Assembly: GCF_001179985.1 (NCBI RefSeq)
Contig: NZ_CVSI01000058.1
Location: 1-64,000 of the forward strand
Reading direction: 5' to 3'
Source: Candidatus Pelagibacter communis
GTDB lineage: Bacteria; Pseudomonadota; Alphaproteobacteria; Pelagibacterales; Pelagibacteraceae
Length of the DNA stretch: 64,000 bases
Position numbers and translations under genes: made by a program. Below, piece by piece: positions 29,521-35,878 of this stretch (position 1 is the stretch's first letter; each line of letters starts with the position of its first letter). The notes below the pieces were generated by a model. The model did no database searches. It saw only the letters and a program-made list of their open reading frames with translations, and had not been told where the DNA came from.

Positions 29521-30196
29521 TTTAATTCAATTAAAAAATGTATCGAAAAATTATATTTCCTCAAAAAAAATTGAAGTTTTAAAAAATATTAATTATACAT
29601 TTAAATCAGGTAAAATATATTCTTTAACTGGCCCCTCAGGCTCTGGAAAGTCTACATTGCTTAATTTAATATCCTTAATAGACAAACCATCTAGTGGTTT
29701 TATAAAACTTAATGATCTAAAAATTAACGATAATGATAATGATCAAAGAGATATGATAAGGTCAAGAAAAATAGGAATTATTTACCAAGATAAAAATTTA
29801 TTAGCTGATTTTAGTACTTTAGAGAATGTCTATTTGGCAAGATTATCTTTAAGTAATAATAAAAAAAAAGCTATCACAGATGCTAAAAACTTATTGAAAA
29901 AAGTTGGGTTAGATAAAAGACTAGACCATTACCCTAGTGAATTATCTGGGGGTGAGTCGCAGAGAGTTGCAATATCGAGAGCTTTAATAAATTCACCCGA
30001 TATAATTTTAGCAGATGAACCAACAGGAAATTTAGATGTCAAAAATGCAAGAGATATATTCAAGCTATTATTTAGCCTAAGAAATAAAAATAGAATAATA
30101 ATATTTGCAACTCATAATAGATATTTTGCAGATATGTCCGACTGTAAATTGAGTTTAATTGATGGTAAAGTATTTACCGTCAATGCAAGAAACTAA
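29513..30196 (+). CDS. lolD: Lipoprotein-releasing system ATP-binding protein LolD
   Basis: 227 residues, the ATPase of the lipoprotein exporter. Walker A G-P-S-G-S-G-K-S-T is at 40-48, the Q-loop Gln at 92, the signature L-S-G-G-E-S-Q at 144-150, and Walker B ends in Asp168-Glu169 followed by P-T-G-N-L-D. It overlaps its permease by 8 bases and dnaE by 14. Confidence 0.95.
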   Translation: MNNLIQLKNVSKNYISSKKIEVLKNINYTFKSGKIYSLTGPSGSGKSTLLNLISLIDKPSSGFIKLNDLKINDNDNDQRDMIRSRKIGIIYQDKNLLADFSTLENVYLARLSLSNNKKKAITDAKNLLKKVGLDKRLDHYPSELSGGESQRVAISRALINSPDIILADEPTGNLDVKNARDIFKLLFSLRNKNRIIIFATHNRYFADMSDCKLSLIDGKVFTVNARN

Positions 30197-33100
30197 AAAG
30201 TCTTTTAATCATTACAAATTGCATACGCAATATTCTATCTGTGAAGGCGCTATAAAGATAGAGGATCTTGAAAAATTTTGCAAAAATAATAAAATCAACT
30301 CAATAGGTATTTCTGACACATCTAACCTATGCGGTGCTTTACAGTTCTCTGAGACTGTCTCAAAATCAAAAACTCAACCAATCATTGGTTCTCAAATAAA
30401 ATTTAAACATAAAGATTTAATAGGACTAATACCAATAATTGTTAAAAACGATATTGGATACAAGAATATTGTAAAACTATCATCAAATTCATATTTAAAT
30501 CATGAAAACTTTAATGAACCATTTTGTGATTTTAGGGATTTATCTCAACGTAGCGATGGTTTAATAGTTACTCTTGGAGGCTTAAATAGTCTGGCCGGAA
30601 TTTTATTTAAAAAAGATAGATTAATTGAACTCAAGGAAATTTATATCTTTTTAAAAAAACTATTCAAAGAAAATTTCTACATTGAAATACAAAGACATGG
30701 TGACATAAATGAAAAAAATTTAGAGGCTTATAACTTAAAAATATCTAAAGAATTGAATATACCAATAATAGCCTCACATGAAGTTTATTATCTAGATAAA
30801 AATATTTATGATGCTCATGATGCTTTAATGTGCATTGGATCAAAAAATTATATTAATGACAAAAACCGTCCAAAGCTCTCAAGTAATCACTATTTTAAGA
30901 GTAATAATGAAATGATTGAATTATTTTCTGATTTACCTGAGGCTTTAGAAAACAACTTTAATTTACATCTAAGGTGTAGTTATAGACTCTCAAGTTCAAA
31001 ACCACTACTTCCTAATATAAGTTCAAAAAAAGATCTTTCTCCTGATGATATACTTAAAAAAGAAGCAGAAGATGGTCTGAAATTAAGACTTGAGGCAGAT
31101 TTAGAAAAAAAAAACAATATTAAAATTGACGAATATGAGAAAAGGCTTAGTCATGAAATAAATATAATATGCAAAATGAATTATGCTAGCTATTTTTTAA
31201 TTGTTTCAGATTACATAAAATGGGCAAAAAAAAACGATATACCTGTTGGACCAGGCAGAGGTTCGGGTGCTGGTTCATTAGTTGCGTGGTGTTTATCTAT
31301 TACTGATGTAGACCCTTTGAAGTTCGATTTGATTTTCGAAAGATTTCTTAATCCTGATAGAATATCCATGCCTGATTTTGATATTGATTTTTGTGAGGAA
31401 AAAAGAGATTTGGTTTTTGAATATTTAAAAAAAAAATACCCAGACTCTGTAGCACATATAATAACATTTGGAAAACTTAAGGCTCGAATGGTCATTAGAG
31501 ATGTTGGAAGAGTTATGGGTTTACCTTATGGTTTTGTTGATAGTATCTGCAAAATGATACCATTTGATCCTTCCAGACCAATGAATTTAAATCAATGTAT
31601 CAACTCTGAACCTAAACTTCAAAAATTGATAAAAGAAGATAAAAGAGTAGAAAGATTAATAAACTTATCTTTAAAACTTGAGGGTTTAAATAGAAATTTT
31701 GCTACTCATGCAGCTGGGGTTGTTATTGCAGATAAGAAACTCTCAGAAACAGTGCCACTTTACAAAGACCCATCCTCAGATCTTTTATTACCATCCACTC
31801 AATTTGATATGTATTCTGCTGAAAATGCTGGTCTAATAAAATTTGATTTTTTAGGTTTAAAAACTTTAACTGTTATAAATAAAACACAAAATTTAGTTAA
31901 AAATAAATTAAAAAATTTTAAAATCAGGAACATAAAATATAATGACCAAAAGGTTTATGACCTTTTGTCTACAGGTAAGACAGTAGGGTTATTTCAATTA
32001 GAGAGCTCTGGAATGCGTGAAGCATTAATTCAAATGAAACCAAATCAGTTAGAAGATATAATAGCATTAGTTGCACTATATAGACCGGGTCCTATGAGCA
32101 ATATTTCAATTTATAATGACTGCAAACATGGAAGACGAGAACCTGATTATTTGCATCCAAAATTAGAAAAAATATTGAAACCAACATATGGAGTAATAAT
32201 TTATCAGGAACAAGTAATGCAAATTGCACAAATTTTATCTGGTTTTTCACCTGGAGAAGCAGATTTACTAAGAAGAGCCATGGGTAAAAAAAAAAGAGCA
32301 GAATTAGAAAGACAAAAAACTAGATTTATAGAAGGAGCTTTTAAAAACGGTATAAGCAAAGATGTAGCTGCAGGTATATTTTTAAAAATAGAACCTTTCG
32401 CCGAGTATGGTTTCAATAAAAGTCATGCAGCAGCTTATGCAATTATTGCTTATCAAACTGCATTTCTGAAAACTTATTATCCCGAAGAATTTTTTGCTGC
32501 ATCAATGTCTATGGAATTATCCAATCAAAAAAAACTTAGTGAGTTTTGTGAAGAAATAAAAAGGTTAAAAATAAATATTATAAGTCCAGACATAAACACA
32601 TGTTTTACTGATTTTAGTTCTAAAAATAATGACTTCTATTATGCATTAGGAGCTATAAAAAATGTAGGTTATGAGGCTATATCAAATATAATAAATGAGA
32701 GAAATAAAAATGGTAAATTCAAATCAGTTTTAGATTTTTTAAACAGAGTAAACCCTAAAGATATAAATAAATTACAATTAGAAGGTCTTACCAAAGCAGG
32801 TGCTTTTGATAGTATTATAAACAATAGAAGGTCATTCTTTGACTCAATTCCAAATTTAATTCAAAAATCTAAAAATATATTCGAAAATAAAACTCAAAAT
32901 CAAATAGATCTATTCTCTAAAAATGATAATAGTGAAAAAATCATAGTAGAAAAACCTGAGTGGAACTTTCAAGAAAAAATGTTAAAAGAGTTTGAAACAA
33001 TAGGCTTTTACCTATCCGATCATCCACTAAATCAATATAAAAATATTTACGATGAATACAATATAACCAAATACTCTGAATTTATAACTAACAAAAACCA

Positions 33101-33575
33101 ATCAGAAAGTATGGTGGCATCAACAATTTTAAAAATTCAAGAAAAAAAAACCCAAAAAGGAACATCATATGCAATTATAAAATTTTCTGATTTAGGAGGT
33201 GTATTTGAGCTTTTTGTTTTTTCTGATCTATTTGAATTAAATAGAGATAACATAAAAGAAGGCAAATCTGTAATAGTAACTCTTTATAAAAATTTCAATG
33301 ACAGCGAACAAAGAATGAGAATTAATGTAAAAAAGATTGTACCTTTAGATGAAATTATTAATAAACCAATTAATGGTTTAAAAATTAAAATATCAAACAC
33401 AAAGGAATTTGAATTATTATCAAAAATTTTAATAAACCAGGGTAATGTAGAGGTTGAATTTGAAATATTAGATAGTGATAAGAAATATACACTTAAATTA
33501 AAAAAAAAACGATTAGTTGACAAAAACATTTTAAATTCTATTAAAAATCAAGGTATTTCAGCTTCAATTTTTTAA
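30183..33575 (+). CDS. dnaE: DNA polymerase III alpha subunit
   Basis: 1130 residues from ATG 30183. An in-frame ATG lies 8 codons upstream inside lolD but is not needed. This is the replicative polymerase. The order is a PHP domain (about 1-270) with a degenerate metal motif beginning H-T-Q-Y-S, the palm with catalytic Asp398/Asp400/Asp402 in P-D-F-D-I-D and Asp555 in D-F-L-G-L-K, thumb and fingers, tandem HhH, and an OB domain near 960-1060. The C-terminal tau-binding part is short. No exonuclease motif is seen, so a separate DnaQ is expected. Confidence 0.97.
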   Translation: MQETKKSFNHYKLHTQYSICEGAIKIEDLEKFCKNNKINSIGISDTSNLCGALQFSETVSKSKTQPIIGSQIKFKHKDLIGLIPIIVKNDIGYKNIVKLSSNSYLNHENFNEPFCDFRDLSQRSDGLIVTLGGLNSLAGILFKKDRLIELKEIYIFLKKLFKENFYIEIQRHGDINEKNLEAYNLKISKELNIPIIASHEVYYLDKNIYDAHDALMCIGSKNYINDKNRPKLSSNHYFKSNNEMIELFSDLPEALENNFNLHLRCSYRLSSSKPLLPNISSKKDLSPDDILKKEAEDGLKLRLEADLEKKNNIKIDEYEKRLSHEINIICKMNYASYFLIVSDYIKWAKKNDIPVGPGRGSGAGSLVAWCLSITDVDPLKFDLIFERFLNPDRISMPDFDIDFCEEKRDLVFEYLKKKYPDSVAHIITFGKLKARMVIRDVGRVMGLPYGFVDSICKMIPFDPSRPMNLNQCINSEPKLQKLIKEDKRVERLINLSLKLEGLNRNFATHAAGVVIADKKLSETVPLYKDPSSDLLLPSTQFDMYSAENAGLIKFDFLGLKTLTVINKTQNLVKNKLKNFKIRNIKYNDQKVYDLLSTGKTVGLFQLESSGMREALIQMKPNQLEDIIALVALYRPGPMSNISIYNDCKHGRREPDYLHPKLEKILKPTYGVIIYQEQVMQIAQILSGFSPGEADLLRRAMGKKKRAELERQKTRFIEGAFKNGISKDVAAGIFLKIEPFAEYGFNKSHAAAYAIIAYQTAFLKTYYPEEFFAASMSMELSNQKKLSEFCEEIKRLKINIISPDINTCFTDFSSKNNDFYYALGAIKNVGYEAISNIINERNKNGKFKSVLDFLNRVNPKDINKLQLEGLTKAGAFDSIINNRRSFFDSIPNLIQKSKNIFENKTQNQIDLFSKNDNSEKIIVEKPEWNFQEKMLKEFETIGFYLSDHPLNQYKNIYDEYNITKYSEFITNKNQSESMVASTILKIQEKKTQKGTSYAIIKFSDLGGVFELFVFSDLFELNRDNIKEGKSVIVTLYKNFNDSEQRMRINVKKIVPLDEIINKPINGLKIKISNTKEFELLSKILINQGNVEVEFEILDSDKKYTLKLKKKRLVDKNILNSIKNQGISASIF

Positions 33576-33630
33576 AAAATTACTTGCGTTTAATTAATAA
33601 AATTATTAAAAGCCAAAATAATAAAACTCA

Positions 33631-33699
33631 CACAGTTAATGGTTTAAAACCTCCGGTGCTTTAATGCTAATAACTGTGGCGGAATAACCGGGAAAATTT
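33631..33699 (+). ncRNA. rpsB leader RNA with H-type pseudoknot
   Basis: Stem P1 is a perfect 8-bp pairing of CACAGTTA (33631-33638) with TAACTGTG (33671-33678). Inside its loop a small hairpin GGTT/AACC (33641-33644 with 33648-33651) is followed by TCCGGT (33652-33657). This pairs with ACCGGG (33687-33692) outside P1, forming a pseudoknot that ends 7 bases before the rpsB ATG. The pairings are strictly complementary apart from one T-G pair. The position suggests autoregulation by ribosomal protein S2, as known for rpsB leaders in gammaproteobacteria. Whether it is the same RNA family cannot be told from one sequence. Confidence 0.6.
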
Positions 33700-34464
33700 A
33701 TGAAGATACCAAATTTAACTATAGAACAATTACTAGAAGCTGGCGTTCACTTAGGTCACAAAACTTTAAGATGGAATCCAAAAATGAAAAAATATATTTT
33801 TGGCAAAAGAGACTCCGTTCATATAATTGATCTTACACAAACATTAGAATTAACAAATAAAGCTTTAGAAAAAATTTATGAGACAATATCTAATAACGGT
33901 AAAATTTTATTTATATCGACAAAAAAACAAGCATCCGAGTCAATTGCTGAATTAGCAAAATCTACAGATCAATATTTTGTAAATTACAGATGGCTTGGTG
34001 GAATGTTAACAAATTGGGGCACAATTTCGAACTCAATTAAAAAACTTAACAAGATTGAGATAGATCTAAAATCTGAAAATAGAGGTTTCACAAAAAAAGA
34101 ACTTTTAAAAATGGGTATTCAAAGAGATAAACTACAAAGATCTCTTGGTGGAATTTCAGAAATGAAAAAAATACCAGACTTAGTTTTTATTATTGATACA
34201 AATTACGAATCATTAGCTATAAAAGAATCTATTAAGTTAAATATACCAATTATCGCAATTTTAGACACAAATTCAAATCCTGAAGGTATTGATTTCCCAA
34301 TACCTGGAAATGACGACGCTAGAAGATCTATTGATTTGTATTGTAATTTAATAAAAGAGACAATAGAAAATGCCAAAAAGGAAGCCCCAAAAGTTGAAGA
34401 AAAAAAAATAATAGAAAATCCTAATAAACAAGAAAATTCTTCTCCAAAAAAAAAATTAAATTAA
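33700..34464 (+). CDS. rpsB: 30S ribosomal protein S2
   Basis: 254 residues. The family signature [19 protein letters not shown] is near the N-terminus, [12 protein letters not shown] is the conserved core, and [19 protein letters not shown] follows. It ends in a Lys/Glu-rich disordered tail. It sits on the platform side of the small subunit. It is preceded by a structured leader and followed by tsf after 10 bases. Confidence 0.98.
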
Positions 34465-34474
34465 TTTTTTAAAA

Positions 34475-35326
34475 ATGGCTGATATCGAAAAAGTTAAGAA
34501 ATTAAGATTTTTAAGTGGCGCTGGCTTTAAAGATTGTAGTTCTGCTTTAGATGAGTCTAACGGTGATATAGATAAAGCTATAGAAATACTCAGAGTTAAA
34601 GGTATATCAAAAGCCTCAAAAAAAATGTCAAGATCAGCAAATGAGGGCTTAATAGCTATAACAGAAGACAATCAAACGTCATCTATTCTAGAAATAAATT
34701 GTGAAACAGATTTTGTAGCAAAAAATGAGGATTTTGTTGTTTTTGTTAAAGAATTAAGCGAGATTAATAATAAGATTGGGTCAAACAGGGAAAGTTTACT
34801 ATTATCAAAAATGAAAAATGGTAAGACTGTAGATGAAAATTTATTAACTTTAATTTCTAAAATCGGTGAAAAAATTACAATTGGAAGATCGAGAAGTTTT
34901 AATTGCAAAGAATTTAAAGTCTTTAAATATCATCATACAACAGTTAAAGATAATCTTTCTAAACTTGGTGTTCTAGTATCATTAAAAACATCTGATAACT
35001 CCGAAAAATTAAAAACTTTTGGCAAACAACTAAGTATGCATATTGCTGCTTTAAACCCATTAGCAATTAACATAGATGACATAGATCCTGAAATTTTAAA
35101 AAAAGAAGAGGAATTAATTTCAGAAGAATTAAAAAATTTGGGAAAACCAGAGGATATTGTTAAAAAAATTAGCATAGGCAAGATCAATAAATTTAAAGAG
35201 GAAAACTCGTTGTTAAATCAACAGTGGGTGATGGAGCCTAAAAAAAAAGTGAAGGATATTTTAAAAGAATTGAATTTAGGCAGTATTGAAATAAAAGAAT
35301 TTTACAGGGTTAAGATTGGAGAATAA
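34475..35326 (+). CDS. tsf: Elongation factor Ts
   Basis: 283 residues. It exchanges GDP for GTP on EF-Tu. The N-terminal UBA-like domain reads [12 protein letters not shown], with Phe in place of the usual Met at G-A-G-M, and the core motif E-T-D-F-V-A-K-N is intact. It lies 10 bases after rpsB and directly abuts frr with no intervening base. The pyrH gene that normally separates tsf from frr is missing here. Confidence 0.96.
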
Positions 35327-35878
35327 ATGTTTAATACGCAAAGTTATAATCAAAAAATGAATAAAACTATTGAAATTTTTGACAAAGAGTTAGGTTCATT
35401 AAGAACAGGTAGAGCAAATGCAAGCATGTTAGATTTAGTTAAGGTTGACGTGTACGGTCAAAAAATGCCAATTAATCAATTGGGCACGATTACAACACCA
35501 GAGCCTAGAATGATAAATATTCAAGTATGGGATTTAAATAACGTTAATTTAATAGACTCTTCTATTAAAAAATCAGAGCTGGGTTTAAATCCTCAAATTG
35601 ACGGACAACTAATTAGACTGCCAATACCTGATTTAAGTGAGGAAAGAAGAAATGAAATGAAAAAAATCGTTAAAACTATGGGTGAAAAATGCAAGGTTTC
35701 AATTAGAAATATAAGGAGAGAAGGAAAAGACAGTTTGAAAAACTTACTAAAAAAAAAAGAAATTTCTGAAGACGAGGAAAAAAAAAATGAAAAAGAAATT
35801 CAAGTTATAACAGACAAGTTCATAAAATTAATTGATGACAAAGTATCATCTAAAGAAAAAGAAATAATGACTATATGA
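35327..35878 (+). CDS. frr: Ribosome recycling factor
   Basis: 183 residues, a three-helix-bundle protein that splits post-termination ribosomes with EF-G. Conserved L-R-T-G-R-A-N-A-S-M-L and the central P-E-P-R-M-I-N-I-Q-V-W-D segment are visible, and the last third is highly charged, with a Lys/Glu-rich helix. A GGAG Shine-Dalgarno-like sequence overlapping the end of tsf (35317-35320) precedes the start, one of the few clear ones in the window. It overlaps uppS by 4 bases. Confidence 0.97.
   Translation: MFNTQSYNQKMNKTIEIFDKELGSLRTGRANASMLDLVKVDVYGQKMPINQLGTITTPEPRMINIQVWDLNNVNLIDSSIKKSELGLNPQIDGQLIRLPIPDLSEERRNEMKKIVKTMGEKCKVSIRNIRREGKDSLKNLLKKKEISEDEEKKNEKEIQVITDKFIKLIDDKVSSKEKEIMTI

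Follow-up and report, generated by a model that had tools for sequence, protein, structure and literature searches.

The leader upstream of rpsB in a Candidatus Pelagibacter communis contig is the known rpsB motif, with a conserved pseudoknot close to the start codon

According to a 2024 review (PMC10931766), the rpsB leader of Escherichia coli is a demonstrated S2 operator, through which excess ribosomal protein S2, together with S1, represses translation of rpsB-tsf from the 5′ untranslated region. The same text reports that the ribosome binding site (RBS) lies outside this operator, for which reason it calls the mechanism unclear, and that deletion of a conserved bulge located far upstream may abolish control (PMC10931766). 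The rpsB motif was described in Candidatus Pelagibacter ubique HTCC1062, pseudoknot included, by Meyer et al. (2009, BMC Genomics 10:268). In that article (PMC2704228), it is placed in the gap 873155–873283 between dnaE and rpsB, with a P2 of 3 bp, a P3 of 2 bp, and a pseudoknot involving J2/3 in Cand. P. ubique, and the pseudoknot is given as 5 bp in groups other than Firmicutes. The conserved structure in gammaproteobacteria is credited there to an earlier study of E. coli, and the pseudoknot is presented as previously unidentified (PMC2704228). The element, its pseudoknot, and a suspected link to S2 are already published for Cand. P. ubique in the same article (PMC2704228).

The window, that is, the whole stretch of 64,000 nucleotides of Candidatus Pelagibacter communis DNA analyzed here, carries dnaE (30159–33575), rpsB, and tsf in this order, with 10 nt between the last two genes. 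The element in front of rpsB is the known rpsB motif RF01815, real, ordinary, and already described. When the leader was compared with the Rfam rpsB-leader models, as the first-pass annotation had suggested, a permissive scan of 33570–33760 matched the full RF01815 model at 33627–33709 with 34.8 bits and an E-value of 1.2e-5. This score does not reach the gathering score of 40 bits, which is why a default Rfam scan misses the leader; at the gathering score, the scan of the whole window returned three tRNAs only. In a search with stricter filters, RF01815 matched 39 of 101 genomes (the window's own and 100 relatives), none of them above the cut-off, so that the gathering score was reached in 0 of the 101. 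Six further leaders of the order scored 28.3–36.1 bits, every one under the cut-off. A leader of the window's genus (L108, from genome G106) scores 33.3 bits at L108:88-169. A protein search places the rpsB start of this genome at 873284, immediately past the published gap 873155–873283, and from this fit we infer that G106 is HTCC1062. Since a leader from a genome fitting the strain of the original description scores just 33.3 bits, we read the sub-threshold score of the window as a limit of the cut-off rather than as non-membership. The 40-bit gathering score of RF01815 in Rfam 15 excludes the window and L108 alike; the current threshold misses the element even in the genome that fits the strain in which it was first described.

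The window shares with RF01815, which sits directly 5′ of rpsB or tsf, the location at the dnaE-rpsB junction, P1 (with an unpaired A in the Rfam model), short P2 and P3, and the J2/3 pseudoknot, and it resembles the published HTCC1062 motif in apparently coming from the same genus. It differs in that P3 is GC/GC instead of the common CC/GG and in that the middle outer pair of P1 is a U/C mismatch. We also compared the leader with t44 RNA (RF00127), which we take to be the rpsB leader of enterobacteria. The P1 strands, to which this comparison was limited, are similar in the alignment, and the t44 model gave the window leader 19.6 bits (E 0.064), short of its cut-off of 44.

The first-pass annotation had described this site as an 8-bp perfect stem and an interleaved helix that together form an H-type pseudoknot. 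The stem is exact, CACAGTTA (33631–33638) being fully complementary to TAACTGTG (33671–33678). The interleaved helix, TCCGGT (33652–33657) with ACCGGG (33687–33692), is also present, with five Watson-Crick pairs and one U-G, although the sixth pair, T33652-G33692, is not kept: just 106 of the 140 leaders introduced below have a standard pair there. The pseudoknot itself, between J2/3 and the 3′ strand, stands, whereas the plain H-type topology gives way to a three-stem junction whose outer P1 segment, P2, and P3 had been missed. In the RF01815 alignment, P1 extends below the bulged A33630 as C33629-G33679 and C33627-G33681. P2 is 4 bp and P3 is 2 bp in the window, where the GC/GC of P3, against CC/GG in most relatives, is itself a change on both sides. 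The features are listed in Table 1.

Table 1. Structural elements of the rpsB leader and the two genes downstream, in window coordinates
Feature	Position	Strand	Basis and remarks
P1, outer 5′ strand	33627..33629	+	RF01815 alignment; pairs C33627-G33681 and C33629-G33679, mismatch U33628/C33680
Bulged A in P1	33630..33630	+	Invariant, with C33629, in 74/74 rows of the MAFFT alignment
P1, inner 5′ strand (the stem of the first-pass annotation)	33631..33638	+	Sequence, leader parse, covariation
P2 hairpin, GGTT 33641-33644 / AACC 33648-33651	33641..33651	+	Anchor-based parse of leaders
J2/3, pseudoknot 5′ strand CCGGU	33653..33657	+	CCGGT in 140/140 leaders of the order
P3, GC 33658-33659 / GC 33666-33667	33658..33667	+	Anchor-based parse of leaders
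P1, 3′ strand (inner 33671-33678, outer 33679-33681)	33671..33681	+	RF01815 alignment, parse, covariation
Pseudoknot 3′ strand ACCGG, 8 nt 5′ of ATG	33687..33691	+	ACCGG in 139/140 leaders of the order
rpsB, 30S ribosomal protein S2	33700..34464	+	TIGR01011, 312.5 bits vs cut-off 76.3; start ATG
tsf, elongation factor Ts	34475..35326	+	TIGR00116, 243.9 bits vs cut-off 104.05

Two interleaved helices of this kind had been called unlikely by chance, and this judgment was borne out. With an 8-bp perfect stem and an interleaved helix of at least six pairs, at least four of them G-C, as the criterion, dinucleotide shuffling of the 124-nt leader produced a comparable pair of helices in 18 of 5000 sequences, and among 4122 overlapping 124-nt segments taken from both strands of the window, 2 had such a pair, both of which contain the rpsB-leader site. 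The fold energy of the leader is modestly low (z −2.16, with 7 of 200 shuffles folding equally well), and the real support for a leader structure is therefore comparative. Because a pseudoknot is beyond the energy-fold model, energy folding was not counted as structural evidence, and folding of the single leader sequence did not recover P2 and P3 in the form seen in relatives. The pseudoknot-free energy fold contains a local hairpin, CGG(AATAA)CCG at 33680–33690, that competes with the pseudoknot for its 3′ strand. We considered this hairpin as a conserved switch and rejected it, as the CGG is missing in most relatives of the MAFFT alignment.

For the comparison within the order, 323 of 397 genomes yielded rpsB in a protein search, and a repeat search outside the window's genus matched all 66 chosen genomes. 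From these we assembled 140 leaders including that of the window (74 from its genus g1, 34 from other genera of family f1, and 32 from its sister family f2), chosen by protein score and by hand and hence a non-random sample. The two pseudoknot strands are nearly invariant: CCGGT is found in 140/140 leaders and ACCGG in 139/140, at 4–12 nt 5′ of the start codon. The sole exception, L063, has ACCGA and an uncompensated C-A at one pseudoknot pair. An anchor-based parse, which avoids the misalignment of the MAFFT alignment but seeks the best helices and is to that extent biased towards structure, found the six inner pairs of P1 in 139 of 140 leaders and five in the remaining one. At the third inner pair, C-G (113 leaders) alternates with A-U (10), U-A (6), U-G (5), G-C (4), G-U (1), and U-U (1), and at the sixth, U-A (80) alternates with C-G (52) and A-U (8). 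The outer segment varies in a similar manner, with C-G in 107, A-U in 28, and other combinations in 5 leaders at the outermost pair, and G-U in 90, U-A in 26, U-G in 3, and non-standard combinations in 21 at the middle one, the C-G and G-U of most leaders being replaced by A-U and U-A mainly in family f2. The parser, looking for the best helix at each place, assigned a P2 of 3–5 bp and a P3 of 2–5 bp to all 140 leaders, and the bulged A, which it had required, can pair with the next 3′ base in none of them. The claim of a structured, conserved rpsB leader is thus upheld, with the helices in place and kept across relatives.

These leaders also bear on a trans-acting small RNA in place of a leader, a reading to which the Rfam type label of RF01815, "sRNA", might lead. 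The element lies directly 5′ of rpsB in 140/140 leaders (which were extracted by that position), its pseudoknot strand abuts the ATG, and the region 33400–34000 is free of any terminator-like site; we regard such an RNA as very improbable.

Covariation was measured on a MAFFT alignment of 74 distinct leaders of the order, with 500 shuffles and slid registers as controls. Cells pair in 85.0% of cases, versus 77.0% in shuffles and at most 47.9% in slid registers, and the covariation score of 0.258, compared with 0.139 in shuffles, is reached by 0/500 of them and contrasts with a maximum of 0.113 in slid registers. For two of the five measures the excess over the shuffles is only modest, in a control that ignores relatedness: 14 pairs show changes on both sides, compared with 11.1 in shuffles (7/500 as high), and 35 further pair types occur, compared with 30.8 (6/500 as high). 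P1 covaries within the order, with changes on both sides in 9 of its 11 pairs. Its two innermost pairs form in part of the rows only, with non-standard combinations in 20 of the 74 rows at 33637-33672 and in 36 at 33638-33671, one row having a gap, and the same holds for P2 and P3, whose pairing is alignment-dependent. None of the six pseudoknot pairs shows a change on both sides among the 74 distinct leaders. Because the MAFFT alignment misplaces P2 and P3 between families and, in a few rows, sets the 3′ pseudoknot strand one base out of register, these figures understate the pairing of P2, P3, and the pseudoknot. The first-pass annotation had pointed to helices broken without compensation as the observation that would speak against the structure. 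P1 survives this test with many compensations, and among the five conserved pseudoknot pairs a single one is broken, in 1 leader of 140 (L063).

The pseudoknot was also examined in leaders outside the order. Of the genomes searched with RF01815, 172 of 289 in the class and 32 of 299 in the phylum have a match, 31 of the latter 32 belonging to the same class. We inspected 95 matched leaders, 70 from the class search and 25 from the phylum search (repeats L230, L231, and L233 excluded), and found CCGGT/ACCGG in 90 of them. Of 37 listed genomes without an RF01815 match, 35 had an rpsB match; 30 of these gave loci and 29 a readable leader, of which a string test found CCGGT and ACCGG in 22 and not in 7. 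Twelve leaders with a non-canonical pseudoknot were aligned by eye from their context, and 10 of them carry at least one change on both sides that preserves pairing. The strands are CUGGU/ACCAG in L184, L191, and L250, UCGGU/ACCGA in L236 and L262, CCAGU/ACUGG in L254, GGGGU/ACCCC in L240, which belongs to another class of the phylum, CUGGU/ACUAG with one further G-U in L264, and CCGA/UCGG, with the fifth pair lost, in L247 and L269. These ten compensated leaders represent eight families (f8, f12, f23, f28, f65, f111, f162, and f174). In L268 a one-sided change leads to U-G, and in L266 the region is rearranged and was left unscored. In a slide control covering 11 of 12 entries, the SAR11 exception L063 among them, 52 of 55 pseudoknot cells pair in register, whereas slid registers never exceed 26 of 55. 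As strands picked by eye favor pairing, we take the changes outside the order as support and not as a formal test. Nearly invariant within the order and compensated outside it, the pseudoknot appears to be a real conserved helix.

The position of this helix relative to the start codon differs between the order and other groups. With the first ATG counted as the start, which makes the distances approximate, the median gap from pseudoknot to ATG is 8 nt in the window's genus, 8 nt in the other genera of f1, and 9 nt in f2, with a range of 4–12 nt in the order, compared with a median of 16 nt in the 90 leaders outside the order, where 9 of 90 have a gap of at most 10 nt. A Shine-Dalgarno (SD)-like tetramer lies within this gap in 79 of those 90 leaders. 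Before rpsB, such a tetramer is found in 0 of 74 leaders of the window's genus, in 7 of 34 of the other f1 genera (pseudoknot strand counted), and, as GGAG, in 32 of 32 leaders of f2, where it overlaps the pseudoknot 3′ strand and is partly formed by it. The window's loop contains CCTCC (33650–33654), a sequence shared by many leaders of the genus that might in principle pair with an SD and so act as an anti-SD mimic; this candidate was rejected, as the motif results from the P2 3′ end plus the pseudoknot strand and family f2 lacks it (GCTGTCCGGT).

By homology with the E. coli operator, S2 autoregulation is the most likely reading of this leader. We propose, with a probability of about 0.8, that this RF01815 leader acts through an S2-stabilized pseudoknot that would block the AUG and lower the output of S2 and EF-Ts, the ligand being assigned by analogy and the blocking from the geometry. 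According to this model, the leader of the rpsB-tsf mRNA would be a cis-acting element composed of P1 with its bulged A, the P2/P3 junction, and the 5-bp pseudoknot. Free S2 would bind the folded leader, probably with the help of S1 as in E. coli, and stabilize the pseudoknot. With 8 nt between the pseudoknot 3′ strand and the AUG, the folded form would keep the 30S subunit from the start codon, and the output of S2 and EF-Ts would drop together. Joint control of EF-Ts, as the first-pass annotation had it, is what the 10-nt rpsB-tsf gap and the operon layout would imply. Masking of the initiation region is plausible in view of this geometry and is favored by the layout in this order.

S2 could also act on this operator without masking the start site, in that a complex of S2, S1, and the leader traps or detaches the 30S subunit upstream of the RBS. 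The reported E. coli data described above, namely an RBS outside the operator, an unclear mechanism, and the possible loss of control on a small deletion of a bulge far upstream, would fit such trapping (PMC10931766). So would the layout outside the order, with its longer gap and frequent SD-like tetramers, and the bulged A33630, which is invariant in the 74 aligned leaders and is perhaps the equivalent of the E. coli bulge, though that the two are the same is a guess. Within the order, however, a bound 30S subunit would meet the pseudoknot strand. A distance of 4–12 nt from the start codon is inside the ribosome footprint. We therefore consider trapping unlikely here, if still a serious competitor, and the short gap between pseudoknot and ATG, together with the distribution of SD-like tetramers, favors the view that in these bacteria the pseudoknot directly occludes the site where the 30S subunit lands. 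Because the E. coli RBS reportedly falls outside the operator (PMC10931766), blocking by the pseudoknot is perhaps not the ancestral mechanism.

A structure without any sensing, which affects mRNA stability or serves as a standby platform for S1 and the 30S subunit to promote initiation, might instead be constitutive. SD-like tetramers precede 7 of 59 ORFs in the window (at least 120 aa, a crude set), versus 10% at random places, and an unusual aid to initiation is conceivable on that count. The structure is kept, though, across lineages that differ in RBS layout, and the E. coli leader mediates S2-dependent repression (PMC10931766), so that we hold a constitutive role to be improbable. The lack of a clear SD excess among the window ORFs suggests, as an observation in its own right, that there is little SD-dependent initiation in this genome.

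Returning to regulation by S2, we tentatively suggest, at somewhat less than even odds, that SAR11 has a contracted form of the rpsB motif, with the pseudoknot 3′ strand in place of the SD tract and with direct occlusion of initiation on S2 binding. In this respect it would differ from the operator of E. coli, where the RBS reportedly lies outside the structure (PMC10931766). In the literature searched on the rpsB leader and RF01815 we found no report of this contracted layout, which does not prove that none exists. If the contracted layout does occlude directly, SAR11 leaders would offer a compact model for the mechanism of S2 autoregulation. Independently of that, the whole-genome data confirm a published leader RNA of abundant ocean bacteria.

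Two further features of the locus were recorded. A generic promoter scan gave 3 sites versus 3.7 expected by chance, with no clear promoter among them, and neither the 74 leaders of the genus nor 55 from outside the order showed a TATAAT-like hexamer at a constant spacing from P1; minor peaks of such hexamers in 12 of 34 leaders of the other f1 genera and 10 of 32 of f2 are hard to judge in A+T-rich sequence. Downstream, the UMP kinase gene pyrH is absent between tsf and frr, which follows tsf directly (34475–35878 for the two genes). A search with the pyrH model TIGR02075 gave scores over the cut-off in 4 of 4 f2 genomes and in 0 of 22 f1 genomes, of which 11 consist of a single contig, and loss or replacement of this essential enzyme in f1 is possible. 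In the four f2 genomes searched, pyrH lies about 0.9 kb past rpsB.
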